Origin: an uncultured Methylocystaceae bacterium
GTDB taxonomy: Bacteria; Pseudomonadota; Alphaproteobacteria; Rhizobiales; Beijerinckiaceae
Assembly: GCA_937870755.1 (NCBI GenBank)
Contig: CALMZV010000146.1
Span: 1 to 64,000 of the forward strand
Direction: 5' to 3'
Length of the DNA: 64,000 nucleotides
Below the pieces are notes generated by a model. It saw only the letters and a program-made list of their open reading frames with translations, ran no database searches and was not told the DNA's origin. Below are positions 24,181-29,268 of the stretch, piece after piece. Position 1 is the first letter of the stretch. Each line of letters begins with the position of its first letter. Both the position numbers and the translations under genes were made by a program.

Positions 24181-24278
24181 TTGATTTCAACATCGTCGCG
24201 GCCGACGCGACATAACGACCCGGCTCGGCCGTTGTGCGCCGCACCCGCGCCGGCGGCGCAGCCTCTTGCCGGGCGGCG

Positions 24279-24330
24279 GCGAACAGGCGAAAAGCCCCCG
24301 CCCTCTTGCGAACAGGTCCTTGCGAACAGG
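24279..24330 (+). repeat. Short repeats in the ABC-F leader
   Basis: GCGAACAGG occurs at 24279-24287, 24308-24316 and 24322-24330. The last two are part of a perfect 12-bp repeat CTTGCGAACAGG (24305-24316 and 24319-24330) with a 2-bp spacer. The final AGG is 3 bp from the ATG and would be a tightly spaced Shine-Dalgarno sequence. Confidence 0.7.
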
Positions 24331-24333
24331 CTT

Positions 24334-26196
24334 ATGCTCTCGATCCAGAATCTCACCTACCGCCTCGGCGAACGGTTGCTGTTCGACGAGGCGAGCGCGC
24401 AACTGCCGGACGGCGCGCGCGTCGGATTCGTCGGGCGCAACGGCACGGGCAAGACGACGCTGTTCCGGCTGATCGCCGGCGAGATCGCGGCCGAGGGCGG
24501 CGAGATCGGCCTGCCGCGCCGCGCGCGCATGGGGCGCGTGGAGCAGGAGGCGCCGGGCGGACCGCAGCGTCTCGTCGATTTCGTGCTCGACGCCGACACG
24601 GAACGCGCGAGCCTGTTGCGCGAGGCCGAAACGGCGTCCGATCCCGCGCGGATCGCCGACATTCAGATGCGTCTGGCCGATATCGACGCGCATTCGGCGC
24701 CGGCGCGCGCGGCCCGCATTCTGTCGGGCCTCGGGTTCGACGAGGCGGCGCAGAACCGCGCGTTGTCGGAATTCTCCGGCGGCTGGCGGATGCGCGTGGC
24801 GCTCGCCGCCATCCTGTTCCTGCAGCCCGACCTGCTGCTGCTCGACGAGCCGACCAACTATCTCGATCTCGAAGGAACGCTGTGGCTGGTCGACCACCTG
24901 AAAACCTATCCGGCGACCGTGCTGGTCATCAGCCACGATCGCGACCTGCTCGATGCGGTATGCGATCACATTCTGCATCTCGACCGCGCGAAGCTGACGG
25001 TTTATCGCGGCGATTACTCGGCTTTCGAGCGGCAGCGCGCCGAAGCGCAGGCGCTCGTCGCCAAAGCCGCGCGGAAACAGGAGGAGCGGCGCAAACATCT
25101 TCAGGAATTCGTCGACCGCTTTCGCGCCAAGGCGACGAAGGCGCGACAGGCGCAGTCGCGGTTGAAGATGTTGCAGAAGATGGAGACGATCGACGTCGCC
25201 GTCGATCAGGACGTCCTGCCGATCCGCCTGCCCTCGCCCGAAAAGCCGTTGTCGCCGCCGATCGTGGCGATGGAGCGCGTCGCCGTCGGCTACGACGACA
25301 GCCCGGTGCTGCGCAATCTGTCGCTGTTGATTTCCGAGGACGACCGCATCGGCCTCATCGGCGCGAACGGCAACGGCAAATCGACGCTCGCCAAACTCAT
25401 AGGCGGGCGGCTGGACGCGCAGGCCGGCCGGGTGGTGCGCGCGCCGAAGCTGGAGACGGCGTTTTTCGCGCAGCATCAGGTGGACGATCTCGACGAAACC
25501 GACACGCCGTATCGCGCGGTCGCGCGACTGATGGCGCAGGCGCCGGAATCACGCGTGCGCGCACGCGCCGCCCAGATCGGCTTCGCAGGCGTGAAGGCGG
25601 ACACGCCGGTCGCGCAATTGTCGGGCGGGGAGAAAGCGCGGCTGCTGCTGGGTCTTGCGACCTTTCACGGCCCGCATCTGATCATTCTCGACGAACCGAC
25701 CAACCATCTCGACATCGACAGCCGCGCGGCGCTGATCGAGGCGATCAATGATTATCGCGGCGCGGCGATCCTGATCTCGCACGACCGCTACCTGCTCGAA
25801 GCCTGCGCGGACCGTCTGTGGCTGGTCGCGGACGGCGGGGTGCGCGAGTTCGACGGCGATCTCGACGACTACACCAGACTGGTCCTGGAAAAGTCGCGCG
25901 GCGAGGCGCGGAAAACAGCGACGCCGCAGAAAGCCGCGCCGAAGGCGCAGGCCGCGCCGGCGAAGGCGCCGCGCCGGCGGGAGCAGGAAAGGAAGCTGCA
26001 ATCGGTCGAGCAGCGGATCGAAAAACTGAACGTGCTCATCGCGCGGATCGATGGGCTCCTGGCCGACGGCGAGACCTTTCAGCGCGATGCGCGCAAGGCC
26101 GGCGAACTGGCCGCCCAACGCGGCGAACTGGCGGCGGCCGTGGCCGCCGCCGAGGACGAATGGCTCGAAATCTCGAGCGCGCTCGACGAGGTCTGA
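24334..26196 (+). CDS. yheS: ABC-F family ATPase, YheS-like
   Basis: 620 residues with two ATP-binding cassettes and no membrane segments. First cassette: GFVGRNGTGKTTLFRLIAGE (Walker A), SEFSGGWRMR (signature), LLLLDEPTNYLDLEG (Walker B). A charged linker follows (RKHLQEFVDRFRAKATKARQ, the P-site tRNA-interaction motif region). Second cassette: GLIGANGNGKSTLAKLIGG, QLSGGEKARLLL, LIILDEPTNHLDIDS. A C-terminal coiled coil (about 560-620) follows an Ala/Lys linker. The order and the SGGWRMR signature match YheS. ABC-F proteins act on the ribosome. An ATG at 24334 is preceded by a repeated leader. Confidence 0.9.
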   Translation: MLSIQNLTYRLGERLLFDEASAQLPDGARVGFVGRNGTGKTTLFRLIAGEIAAEGGEIGLPRRARMGRVEQEAPGGPQRLVDFVLDADTERASLLREAETASDPARIADIQMRLADIDAHSAPARAARILSGLGFDEAAQNRALSEFSGGWRMRVALAAILFLQPDLLLLDEPTNYLDLEGTLWLVDHLKTYPATVLVISHDRDLLDAVCDHILHLDRAKLTVYRGDYSAFERQRAEAQALVAKAARKQEERRKHLQEFVDRFRAKATKARQAQSRLKMLQKMETIDVAVDQDVLPIRLPSPEKPLSPPIVAMERVAVGYDDSPVLRNLSLLISEDDRIGLIGANGNGKSTLAKLIGGRLDAQAGRVVRAPKLETAFFAQHQVDDLDETDTPYRAVARLMAQAPESRVRARAAQIGFAGVKADTPVAQLSGGEKARLLLGLATFHGPHLIILDEPTNHLDIDSRAALIEAINDYRGAAILISHDRYLLEACADRLWLVADGGVREFDGDLDDYTRLVLEKSRGEARKTATPQKAAPKAQAAPAKAPRRREQERKLQSVEQRIEKLNVLIARIDGLLADGETFQRDARKAGELAAQRGELAAAVAAAEDEWLEISSALDEV

Positions 26197-26251: not shown

Positions 26252-26542
26252 TCACCAGCGCGGCGGCCGGCCCCAGGCGCCGGGCGGCGGCGGTCCCCAC
26301 CGACGCGGCGGCGGACCCCACATACCGGGCGGCGGAGGCGGCGGCGGGCGGTAGTAGCGCGGCCGCGTGCGCCAGCAGCGGCCCCACTGATCGCAGACCA
26401 CACGCGCCTGTTCGACGCCGCCGTCGAAATCGATCGCGCCCGACGCTCCGGCGCCGAGGACCGGCGCGGCCGTTGCGCCGCCCGCGGCCAACGCCCCGAG
26501 CGACAATGTCGCGGCCAGCGCGATTTGCAGCGAAGTTCTCAT
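26252..26542 (-). CDS. Small secreted protein, WGRCWRT family, paralogue A
   Basis: 96 residues. ATG at 26542 follows GAGGAGAAGAAGCC. Signal peptide MRTSLQIALAATLSLGALAA, cleavage near ATA-AP. The core VEQARVVCDQWGRCWRTRPR has two cysteines six residues apart, and the tail is Tyr then Pro/Gly/Trp-rich (six consecutive Pro at about 70-76, then PPPRRWGPPPPGAW). It is the first of three tandem paralogues on the minus strand (next at 26678 and 27157). No function is known; the tail suggests a wall- or matrix-associated, disordered polypeptide. Confidence 0.72.
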   Translation of the reverse strand: MRTSLQIALAATLSLGALAAGGATAAPVLGAGASGAIDFDGGVEQARVVCDQWGRCWRTRPRYYRPPPPPPPGMWGPPPRRWGPPPPGAWGRPPRW

Positions 26543-26677
26543 ATGGCTTCTTCTCCTCAACTCCCCACTTTGGACATAGGCGTGGCCATAAGGGGAGCCA
26601 ATCGCCGCGACCTGCGACAAATTCGGCAGCCATCGGAAAAAGAAACGGCGGCTCCAAGCCGCCGTTTCGTGGAGGGC

Positions 26678-26959
26678 TCACCAGCCGCGATAGAAGCGCG
26701 GCGGACCGTAGTAGCGGCGCGGCGCGTAATAGCGGCGCGGCGCATAGTAGCGATACGGGCGATAGTAGCGCGGTCCGGTGCGCCAGCAGCGGCCCCATCG
26801 ATTGCAGACGACGCGCGCCTTCTCGACGCCGGCGGCCAGATCGGCGGCCGAGGCGACGCCCCGATCGACCATCGGCGCCGCCGAGGCGACCGACTGCGAC
26901 ATCGCCAGTCCACCGAAGGCGAACGCGCCGGCGAGAGCAAGCTTCAAGGATGTTTTCAT
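26678..26959 (-). CDS. Small secreted protein, WGRCWRT family, paralogue B
   Basis: 93 residues; RBS AAGGAGCG before ATG 26959. Signal peptide MKTSLKLALAGAFAFGGLAM, cleavage near ASA-AP. The core VEKARVVCNRWGRCWRTGPR is nearly that of the neighbours. The tail is a Tyr/Arg/Pro repeat (YYAPRRYYAPRRYYGPPRFY), unlike the Pro/Gly/Trp tail of paralogue A. Each copy has its own RBS and a 135- to 200-bp spacer, so each may have its own promoter. Function unknown. Confidence 0.75.
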   Translation of the reverse strand: MKTSLKLALAGAFAFGGLAMSQSVASAAPMVDRGVASAADLAAGVEKARVVCNRWGRCWRTGPRYYRPYRYYAPRRYYAPRRYYGPPRFYRGW

Positions 26960-27156
26960 GCATCGCTCCTTTCGAGAACCGCACATTGCAAGACTGTGGA
27001 ATCCGAGACTGCAGATTCCGATAGTGCAATGACCGTATCAAACCACAATGAACCGCCGCTGAACGCACGACCGCCCAACATGATTAAGGGCCGCGGACGA
27101 AACCGGAAACAGCGGGGCGTCCCGCCGTGTTCGTCCGTCCGCGACTCACCCCAAGT

Positions 27157-27456
27157 CTACCAGCCCGGACCCCAGTGACGACGATGCCCCCATCCGCCGC
27201 CGTAAAAATGACGCGGCCCGCCCCATCCGTAGCCCCAACGGGGCGGCCCGTAATATGGCCCATAATATCGCGGGCGCGTGCGCCAGCAGCGTCCCCAGGC
27301 GTCGCAGACGATGCGCGCCTTTTCCACCCCGTCGGCGCGGGCGTTGGCGGTCGCCACGCCGGGGTCGATCATCGGAGCGGCGGAGGCCGCGCCGCCGACC
27401 GCCAGTCCGCCGGCCGCCAGAGCTGTCGCCAGGGCGACCCGAAGCGCTGTCTTCAT
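27157..27456 (-). CDS. Small secreted protein, WGRCWRT family, paralogue C
   Basis: 99 residues; RBS AAGAAGGA before ATG 27456. Signal peptide MKTALRVALATALAAGGLAV, cleavage near ASA-AP. Core VEKARIVCDAWGRCWRTRPR, then a Tyr/Gly/His/Trp-rich tail (YYGPYYGPPRWGYGWGG, HRRHWGPGW). The His residues in the tail could bind metal. It belongs to the same family as the two genes downstream; the signal peptide and core are conserved while the tails diverge. Confidence 0.75.
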   Translation of the reverse strand: MKTALRVALATALAAGGLAVGGAASAAPMIDPGVATANARADGVEKARIVCDAWGRCWRTRPRYYGPYYGPPRWGYGWGGPRHFYGGGWGHRRHWGPGW

Positions 27457-27539
27457 CCCAGGAATCCTTCTTCCAAAGGCGCCCCCCGGTCAAAGATAGT
27501 CCATGTGCGCCCATGAACCAGCGGTGAACGTCGATCGCC

Positions 27540-28685
27540 TCATTCCGTCGACCGCCCCGCCAGCCCGCGCGCGGCCATCCACAGCGCGAACGCCAGGTTG
27601 AGCGCGGCCAGAACCAGCATGACCGTCTCGTAATCGGTGGCGGCGATCAGCCAGGTCGCGGGCAGCGGCATGGCGAACAGGCCGAAGTTGAAGAACCCGT
27701 TCAGCCAGGCCTGCGGGCCGGCCCGCCGCTCGGGCGCGACGCCCTCGCTCATCCAGGCCGAGAGCATGGGATAGGTCAGCGAATAGCCGAAGCCGAACAC
27801 GATTCCGCCGGCGACCACCGGCCAGACGGTGCGCCCGGCCAGCGCCACCGCCACGAAACCGGCCGACAACAGCGCCAGACCGCCGGCCACAAGAATGCGC
27901 GGATTGACCGCATCGACCCCGCGCAGCGCCAGCACGCGGCTGGAGAACATCGTGACCAGCGAGGCGGTGAAGAAGGCCGCGAGCGGCAGGCCGCGCGCCT
28001 GAAAGGCGGAGGCGAAATAGGCGGTGGCGTAGCCGAACATCGTGCCGTTGAGCAGCACCGCGGTCAGCGGTTCGAGATGCGCGGGCCGCCAGCTCGCGAA
28101 CAGGTCGAGACCGCGCGTCTTCAGCGGCCGGTCCAGCGGCCGCAGCGTGAAGGTGAGCGCGATGCCGACGAGCGCGGGAACCGACACCAGCAGGAACAGA
28201 AACCCGTCGCCCCAGCGCCCGATGATCCATTCGCCGAACGGCGGCGCGATCGCCTGCGTGAGCGGCATGACGGCCGACAGGACGCCCAGCAGGAACACGA
28301 AGCGCGTGGCGTTCAACCGGCTCTGCGCGTAGGTGATGACGGCCGACAGAAACAGTCCCTGCCCCACGCCCTGCACGGCGCGCGACGCGTAGGCGGCGGC
28401 GAAATCGCCCTTGGTGAACTGCAGCGAGGCGAAGCCGAGCGTCGTGAGCGCCATCGCAATGCGCAACGTCCACAGCACGCCGACTCGCGCGGCCACCTCG
28501 CTCGAAAATAGCGCGCAGACGATGACGGGAACCGCGATGGCGGTGATCAGCAGGCCGGTCGCGTGCAGGTCGTGGCCGGCGCGCGCGAATATGACCGACA
28601 GCAGCGTCGAATGCGCGTTCATGAACGCGACGAGAAAACAGCCGATCGCCAACCGCGCGTATTCGCCGCGTGCGCGGGCGTCCAT
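27540..28685 (-). CDS. MFS transporter
   Basis: 381 residues from ATG 28685 (a GTG at 28730 would add 15). About 12 membrane helices: GCFLVAFMNAHSTLLSVIFA first, then VPVIVCALFSSEVAARVGVLWTL with the loop 2-3 region, SRAVQGVGQGLFLSAVITYA, and the second half VFGFGYSLTYPMLSAWMSEG. Substrate unknown. The frame is open a further 200 bases upstream but the predicted residues there are low-complexity and unlike a transporter N-terminus. Confidence 0.85.
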   Translation of the reverse strand: MDARARGEYARLAIGCFLVAFMNAHSTLLSVIFARAGHDLHATGLLITAIAVPVIVCALFSSEVAARVGVLWTLRIAMALTTLGFASLQFTKGDFAAAYASRAVQGVGQGLFLSAVITYAQSRLNATRFVFLLGVLSAVMPLTQAIAPPFGEWIIGRWGDGFLFLLVSVPALVGIALTFTLRPLDRPLKTRGLDLFASWRPAHLEPLTAVLLNGTMFGYATAYFASAFQARGLPLAAFFTASLVTMFSSRVLALRGVDAVNPRILVAGGLALLSAGFVAVALAGRTVWPVVAGGIVFGFGYSLTYPMLSAWMSEGVAPERRAGPQAWLNGFFNFGLFAMPLPATWLIAATDYETVMLVLAALNLAFALWMAARGLAGRSTE

Positions 28686-28803
28686 ATAGCCGGCGATCCT
28701 GGCGGCCCCGTCCGCCTCGCCCGCGCTCACGGACGCAGCGGCTGCGGCGCGGAATGATGTTGCGAAATTCGCACGTTTTCGCCGTGCGCGGCGCGCGTCC
28801 CGT

Positions 28804-29268
28804 TCAAGCGATCTTCTCCCAGCGGCGCTGTTCGTTTTGCCGCCAATAGGACAGGACAAACCCCTTGTCGCGCAAGGCCCGGAACTGCGCGCGCGCCGTC
28901 TGGAGCGCGCTTTCGTCGGCGCCGTCGAAAACAACCATGGCGCGTTCGCGTGGCGCGGCCTGCGGGTCGGCGAGCGCGCTCACCACGTCCGCGCCGTCGA
29001 CGAACAGGCGCACCGCGCAGGCGTTGGGATTGTCGGCCTGCGTGGTCAGGAAGACCGGCTGCATGGCGCCGTCGCCGTCGTGCGCCGCGCCGTGCGCCAG
29101 AAAGGAATCCTCGCTGTAGGTCCACAGCAGTTCGTCGAGCGCGGCGATCCGCTCAGGGTCGGTCGCCTGCACCACCGCCGTCCAGCCGTTGGCGCGCGCG
29201 CGTTCGAGCAGCAGGGGGAGCGCGCGTTCAAGCGGCTGGCGTTCGAGATGATAGAACCAGACTTCCAT
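28804..29268 (-). CDS. holC: DNA polymerase III chi subunit
   Basis: 154 residues. MEVWFYHLERQPLERALPLL, then ERARANGWTAVVQATDPERI and LDELLWTYSEDSFLAHG are the HolC signatures; VFDGADESALQTARAQFRAL and the ending KGFVLSYWRQNEQRRWEKIA complete the family. The chi subunit links the clamp loader to SSB. In many alphaproteobacteria holC follows pepA; here a serine hydrolase gene on the other strand separates them. ATG at 29268 chosen because the family starts there; upstream bases hold a 24-bp tandem repeat. Confidence 0.93.
   Translation of the reverse strand: MEVWFYHLERQPLERALPLLLERARANGWTAVVQATDPERIAALDELLWTYSEDSFLAHGAAHDGDGAMQPVFLTTQADNPNACAVRLFVDGADVVSALADPQAAPRERAMVVFDGADESALQTARAQFRALRDKGFVLSYWRQNEQRRWEKIA

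Follow-up and report, generated by a model that had tools for sequence, protein, structure and literature searches.

Whether three small tandem genes with unlike tails form one family, what controls them, and what they do in the cell are the questions raised by this locus. Herein, the window is the whole stretch of DNA analysed, 64,000 nucleotides from an uncultured Methylocystaceae bacterium, and the three genes are called A, B, and C (Table 1). The initial annotation had described them as minus-strand paralogues of 96, 93, and 99 codons with a common core, and this was borne out by the open reading frames, the alignment, and a genome search. All three proteins carry an exported head followed by the core VExARxVCxxWGRCWRT; 37 alignment columns were invariant, including VE-AR-VC--WGRCWRT, and the identity to B over the alignment was 68% for C and 52% for A. 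When the 4.52-Mb genome was searched, A, B, and C were the only strong copies (E values of 9e-60, 2e-23, and 1e-20). The next match, L004 at E 0.036, was dismissed as a chance match on reading its sequence.

The export signal, as read from the sequence, consists of a basic start, a hydrophobic stretch, and A-x-A before AP. With the cleavage point placed by hand at this A-x-A, the mature proteins were computed to have 66–73 residues, a pI of 10.1–11.1, and a charge of +5.8 to +11.8. The head and the core alignment support the proposed module of export and a conserved cysteine pair. The tails had been said to diverge completely. They are indeed variable low-complexity ends, but all of them start with PRYY[RG]P, end with W, and consist of Y/W/F/G/P/R/H to 94%–100%. 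Whole tails aligned above chance, as their scores were reached by only 3–10 of 1000 shuffles. Past the first eight residues, the B–C pair was suggestive (17 of 1000 shuffles reached the score), whereas A–B (155 of 1000) and A–C (216 of 1000) were not. The tails therefore align at their start and not convincingly further on, and complete divergence is not what we found. We interpret the three genes as lineage-specific copies, arranged in tandem, of a small exported protein whose family is unregistered, and we are highly confident of the architecture of these proteins.

Table 1. Features of the A/B/C locus (positions in the window)
Feature	Position	Strand	Description	Basis
ABC-F-type ATPase gene, flanking	24181-26196	plus	Syntenic marker; true start probably inside the frame	ORF as listed; name from sequence reading
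Gene A	26252-26542	minus	96 aa exported protein, tail P/W/G/R	ORF, alignment, composition
Core of A, V43-T59	26366-26416	minus		Alignment
Terminator-like hairpin	26642-26668	minus	Intrinsic type, 12 pairs, T run; between B and A	
Gene B	26678-26959	minus	93 aa exported protein, tail Y/R/P repeats	ORF, alignment, composition
Core of B, V45-T61	26777-26827	minus	Predicted strands 49-52 and 58-61	AlphaFold model
Box upstream of B	27049-27064	minus	GTTCA-N6-GTTCA (contains TTCA-N7-TTCA); predicted FeuP site	
Gene C	27157-27456	minus	99 aa exported protein, tail Y/G/W/H/P/R	ORF, alignment, composition
Core of C, V44-T60	27277-27327	minus	Disulfide-capped beta-hairpin predicted (modelled for B and a relative)	Alignment
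Box upstream of C	27514-27529	minus	GTTCA-N6-GTTCA (contains TTCA-N7-TTCA); predicted FeuP site	
MFS-type transporter gene, flanking	27540-28934	minus	Syntenic marker; true start probably inside the frame	ORF as listed; name from sequence reading

The family had been noted as lacking a known function. In agreement with this, Pfam, NCBIfam, PHROGs, and the PDB gave no match to A, B, or C, with weak hits falling under the cut-offs, and no annotated family with a known role was found to contain the core. Foldseek against the PDB returned nothing (best E 4), the plasmid search gave no relative, and the open-licence literature yielded no publication on the family. The proteins of NCBIfam NF047412 (sig_GCG_CRPN_rpt, GCG_CRPN prefix-to-repeats) are likewise exported, with a short two-Cys motif including W-G-R-C and then a low-complexity tail, and its member in the window genome has nearly the same promoter box as B and C. 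However, its first Cys is further away (GCG...), and a threshold as loose as E 10 gave no match of the model to A, B, or C. The curated cut-off is 24 bits, which the L136/L147 protein of the window genome exceeded with 28.5 bits. Sulfur globule proteins are also small, exported, and rich in Gly/Tyr/Trp; to our knowledge, they have no Cys hairpin core.

When about 85,000 species genomes were scanned for the pattern VC[ND]xWGRCW, 163 stretches were obtained, 157 of which were confirmed as relatives. The best 80 of these 157 came mostly from Bradyrhizobium, Rhodopseudomonas, and Afipia, together with some Beijerinckiaceae-type MAGs, one of them named Rhodoblastus sp. Family relatives occur in Beijerinckiaceae and Nitrobacteraceae. 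One of the best 80 (L066) comes from a contig that bears the label Streptomyces sp. AcH 505 and looks like a Nitrobacteraceae contaminant. Of 397 genomes of the order, 11 contained the exact core when it was used as a DNA pattern, and none contained its reversed control. Of 397 genomes of the window's family searched with a profile, 159 had a match at E 0.01, many of them weak and possibly due to composition.

Within the genus, five further genomes (G001–G005) were compared for synteny. The same ABC-F gene adjoined the family locus in all five and the same MFS gene in four (it was not seen in G002). The number of copies at this locus was 1, 2, 3, 1, and 1 in G001–G005, respectively, and three in the window genome. 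As G001, G004, and G005 hold a single copy there, a local expansion in the window genome is indicated. When a tree was built from the heads and cores of 15 sequences, all WRT-type copies formed one clade (96/95), with the inner order mostly unresolved. The orthologues at L007 1109-1390 (G003) and L008 1079-1366 (G002) are a two-headed variant in which the C-terminus holds another complete hairpin core, RVVC[ND].WGRCWRRW, and the promoter box is present at both. In these sequences, the hairpin module is used twice in one chain.

The shape of the core was predicted with AlphaFold. When B was placed first among 37 sequences, the two strands listed in Table 1 were obtained, with a pLDDT of 83 for residues 51–60 and a mean of 55.5. 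When a Bradyrhizobium relative was placed first among 26 sequences, the strands were 48–52 and 58–62, with a pLDDT of 78 for residues 51–60 and a mean of 53.3. In the model of B, C52 and C58 lie at the strand ends across a turn of the N-x-W-G type, and the hairpin tip of the family core is N/D-x-W-G. Outside the hairpin, the confidence was low (overall means 53–56) and the chain was predicted to be disordered. Wider relatives have C-x4-C (CGPYRC) or C-x5-C cores in unchanged surroundings with both Cys kept. A set of 94 sequences was chosen for a stricter core and for upstream regions that differ from one another. Of these, 90 had exactly two Cys from the core onward and 80 had a final Trp; the tails of the set were composed of 19% Gly, 19% Arg, 18% Tyr, 13% Pro, 12% Trp, and 7% His. 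In prediction, a conserved pair of Cys spans a two-strand hairpin. Considering that the models agree and that the loop length varies while both Cys stay, the evidence favours a beta-hairpin that the two Cys close with a disulfide, where the fold is predicted and the bond itself is what we infer.

As to control, the upstream regions gave a lead for B and C. They have the common sequence CGTTCA-nCGnn-GGTTCAT, starting about 107 bp before the start codon of B and about 75 bp before that of C. A search of both strands of the window for TTCA-N7-TT[AC]A found two sites only, those preceding B and C. An 18-mer built on the two boxes had two perfect places in the genome, B and C, and two with one mismatch, which precede other small exported low-complexity proteins, namely, a GCG_CRPN protein and a GWRG/YGYGYP-rich protein. 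Genome-wide, GTTCA-N6-GTTMA occurred at 14 sites and the reversed pattern at none. On reading by hand, nine of the 14 were within 260 bp before a plausible gene, and the other five were unclear or probably intragenic. The nine genes are B, C, chvI, and those encoding the GCG_CRPN and GWRG/YGYGYP-rich proteins, a FeuN-like protein, a Flp-type pilin, a cytochrome c, and one more small exported protein; the pilin, cytochrome, and chvI names were read from the sequence, and the ChvG-type kinase beside chvI was confirmed by profile. When GTTCA pairs with gaps of 0–20 were scanned across the genome, 149 sites were found (reversed control, 24), and gap 6 was, by eye, the commonest out-of-frame spacing among the 100 of these 149 that were listed.

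The box is also present before relatives. TTCA-N7-TT[AC]A was found in 6 of 11 family promoters of the genus, compared with 0.02 in shuffles, none of 2000 shuffles reaching six; leaving out B and C, the count was 4 of 9. For the other Beijerinckiaceae, 22 promoters were taken from loci L012–L017 and L109–L132 after dropping duplicates and loci without a clear core, a start, or enough upstream DNA. Gap 7 occurred in 10 of them, from seven genera, gaps of 3–6 and 8–10 in none, and the remaining 12 had no box. General-stress sigma boxes (GGAAC-N16/17-[CG]GTT) gave only three loose matches in 94 promoters. At the GCG_CRPN relative of G001 (L020), the TTCA pair has a gap of 5, not 7.

To find the regulator, the nine OmpR-type regulator loci in the genome were all scored with a weight matrix built from 17 family sites. 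The best score, 21.3, belonged to a site 419 bp ahead of a regulator gene. Between the two lies the gene of an exported protein of 120 residues, and the regulator is followed by a kinase. Of the other loci, chvI scored 15.2, two more 12.9 and 11.5, and five gave none. By its place, the 120-residue protein is FeuN-like, and the corresponding protein in L224 comes just above the cut-off for PepSY (24.6 vs. 24). The regulator is named FeuP-like from its subfamily, the box, and the succession of a PepSY-like exported protein, the regulator, and a kinase. Among the best 30 matches to this regulator (L212–L241, 30 genomes), 27 had TTCA-N7-TTCA about 330–510 bp before the regulator, ahead of the small gene, compared with 0–1 for other gaps and 0–2 for the other strand. 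With the six genomes of the window's genus removed from these best 30, the box was still present in 21 of 24.

In the available text of the Sinorhizobium meliloti start-site paper, TTCA-N7-TTCA is motif 3, located upstream of 12 genes, five of them FeuP-dependent, and also at feuN; it is named there only a candidate FeuP binding site (PMC3616915). Our box was defined from the present sequences ahead of this comparison. Because it equals both the box of the feuN-feuP-like operons and the S. meliloti motif, B and C are predicted FeuP targets, and their membership in the FeuP-FeuQ (osmosensory, cyclic-glucan) regulon is probable. The genome's own feuN-feuP-like operon carries the box. Gene A, which lies behind the terminator-like hairpin and has no TTCA-N7-TTCA upstream, has either left FeuP control or is transcribed from a different signal. 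The described regulon of S. meliloti (ndvA, feuN, and others) has the same box, and the feuN product is exported likewise, whereas the A/B/C family is not named among the genes described in the available parts of PMC3616915.

CenR was also considered. The bare TGA-N8-TGA fits the reverse complement of the box, although the sites listed in the available text of PMC9275681 and PMC9561847, mostly T[GC]AC...GTGA, are unlike it. Since the FeuP candidate motif fits the box exactly, CenR is disfavoured, and no more than disfavoured given the fit of the bare pattern.

Another candidate is ChvI of the ChvG-ChvI envelope-stress system, which might read the box instead of FeuP or together with it and make these genes part of its own regulon. 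TTCA-N7-TTCA precedes chvI in all four genus genomes with a fetched chvI locus (L151, L152, L153, and L156) and in one other, that is, 5 of 29, and the S. meliloti ChvI consensus GCC-N8-GCC has an 11-bp period as well (PMC9731502, in the part available). The ChvG-ChvI regulon also includes small exported proteins; many small or signal-sequence proteins are among the genes induced in an active ExoS-ChvI mutant, as described in the accessible part of PMC8343143. Its box, however, differs in sequence from that of B and C, and the published ChvI and BvrR motifs, as far as the available texts give them, are likewise unlike it. Moreover, 24 of the 29 chvI promoters have no box, by the weight matrix 22 of 29 do not reach p 0.05, and all 20 chvI loci of the Bradyrhizobium-like genus are without it, in contrast to the frequency at the best 30 feuP-like operons. 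Reading by ChvI, alone or together with FeuP, seems unlikely, and we keep FeuP as the predicted regulator. The box before chvI in the genus would link the FeuP and ChvI systems there, and it is absent from most relatives.

A different spacing was observed in Nitrobacteraceae. Gap 6 occurred in 46 of 74 family promoters and gap 7 in three, the 46 not being independent events because they are close orthologues. Since the spacing is 6 instead of 7, another regulator may act there. The exact Bradyrhizobium-type box occurred once in each of two of four genomes and was absent from the other two, too rare for a regulon to be drawn. In L026–L103, about 90–105 bp before the start, a strongly conserved TGAAC is followed by TTCA-N6-TTAA, with 10-bp spacing.

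As for the role, the following course of events would fit these features. FeuQ would sense osmotic or other periplasmic stress, and FeuP would then bind the B and C boxes and turn the genes on. The proteins might fold in the oxidising periplasm, where the hairpin Trp/Arg and the cationic aromatic tail may bind anionic envelope polymers, such as LPS, cyclic glucan, peptidoglycan, or exopolysaccharide, so that the bound proteins could reinforce or coat the envelope. The tails would drift because composition matters and order does not. Envelope coating by cationic proteins is the likeliest role that we can propose for B and C, and we put it forward tentatively; for the whole explanation, comprising the exported hairpin family, FeuP control of B and C, and envelope coating, the chances seem about even.

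The initial annotation had instead suggested adhesive or matrix proteins, an exported glue for surface attachment. Export, the Tyr/Trp/Arg/Pro/Gly tails, and the positive charge suit this idea, but composition by itself is not decisive, no matrix, pilus, or exopolysaccharide genes were seen beside A, B, and C in the syntenic MFS/ABC-F locus, and control by a periplasmic-stress box points elsewhere. Because B and C share their box with the FeuP-like operon, control by envelope or osmotic stress is favoured over biofilm as such, and we regard a glue as rather unlikely. The same box raises the question of whether these small exported proteins feed back or signal to the FeuQ sensor from within the periplasm. 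A precedent is FeuN, which modulates FeuQ negatively in the periplasm according to the available parts of PMC12486126 and PMC3616915. No sequence relation was seen between A, B, and C and the PepSY-like FeuN-like proteins, and we consider this role less probable than adhesion. NCR247, a cationic cysteine-rich host peptide, switches on FeuP-FeuQ via a chiral periplasmic contact, according to the accessible text of PMC12486126. In a far-fetched version, the A/B/C family would be the cell's own FeuQ ligands or buffers, FeuP-controlled and acting back on FeuQ, and peptides of the NCR247 type would imitate them. Cationic antimicrobial proteins aimed at competitors are equally improbable: a charge of +6 to +12, a Cys-capped hairpin, and Pro/Arg-rich tails would suit them, whereas no immunity, processing, or dedicated export gene was seen adjoining A, B, and C, and the occurrence of orthologues at one locus in different species of the genus is suggestive of an ordinary cell function. 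Envelope coating stays our preferred role.

With these results, a family without a library entry gains a candidate regulator and a predicted structure, and the FeuP box, a candidate motif described from one species, is seen to be kept before feuN-feuP-like operons more widely. FeuP is needed for root nodule invasion by S. meliloti, as stated in the available part of PMC3616915, and this lends interest to exported regulon members that have escaped notice. In the window genome, a FeuP-type box is common to three kinds of small exported low-complexity proteins. Besides the present family, these are the GCG_CRPN protein and the unregistered GWRG/YGYGYP-rich exported protein, located at L136 1501-1926 and L135 1501-1994 with nearly the same 18-bp box. 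At L135 3-494, a frame of 163 codons, mostly glutamine and ending in RRCPPGYPPGARC, may encode another low-complexity protein.
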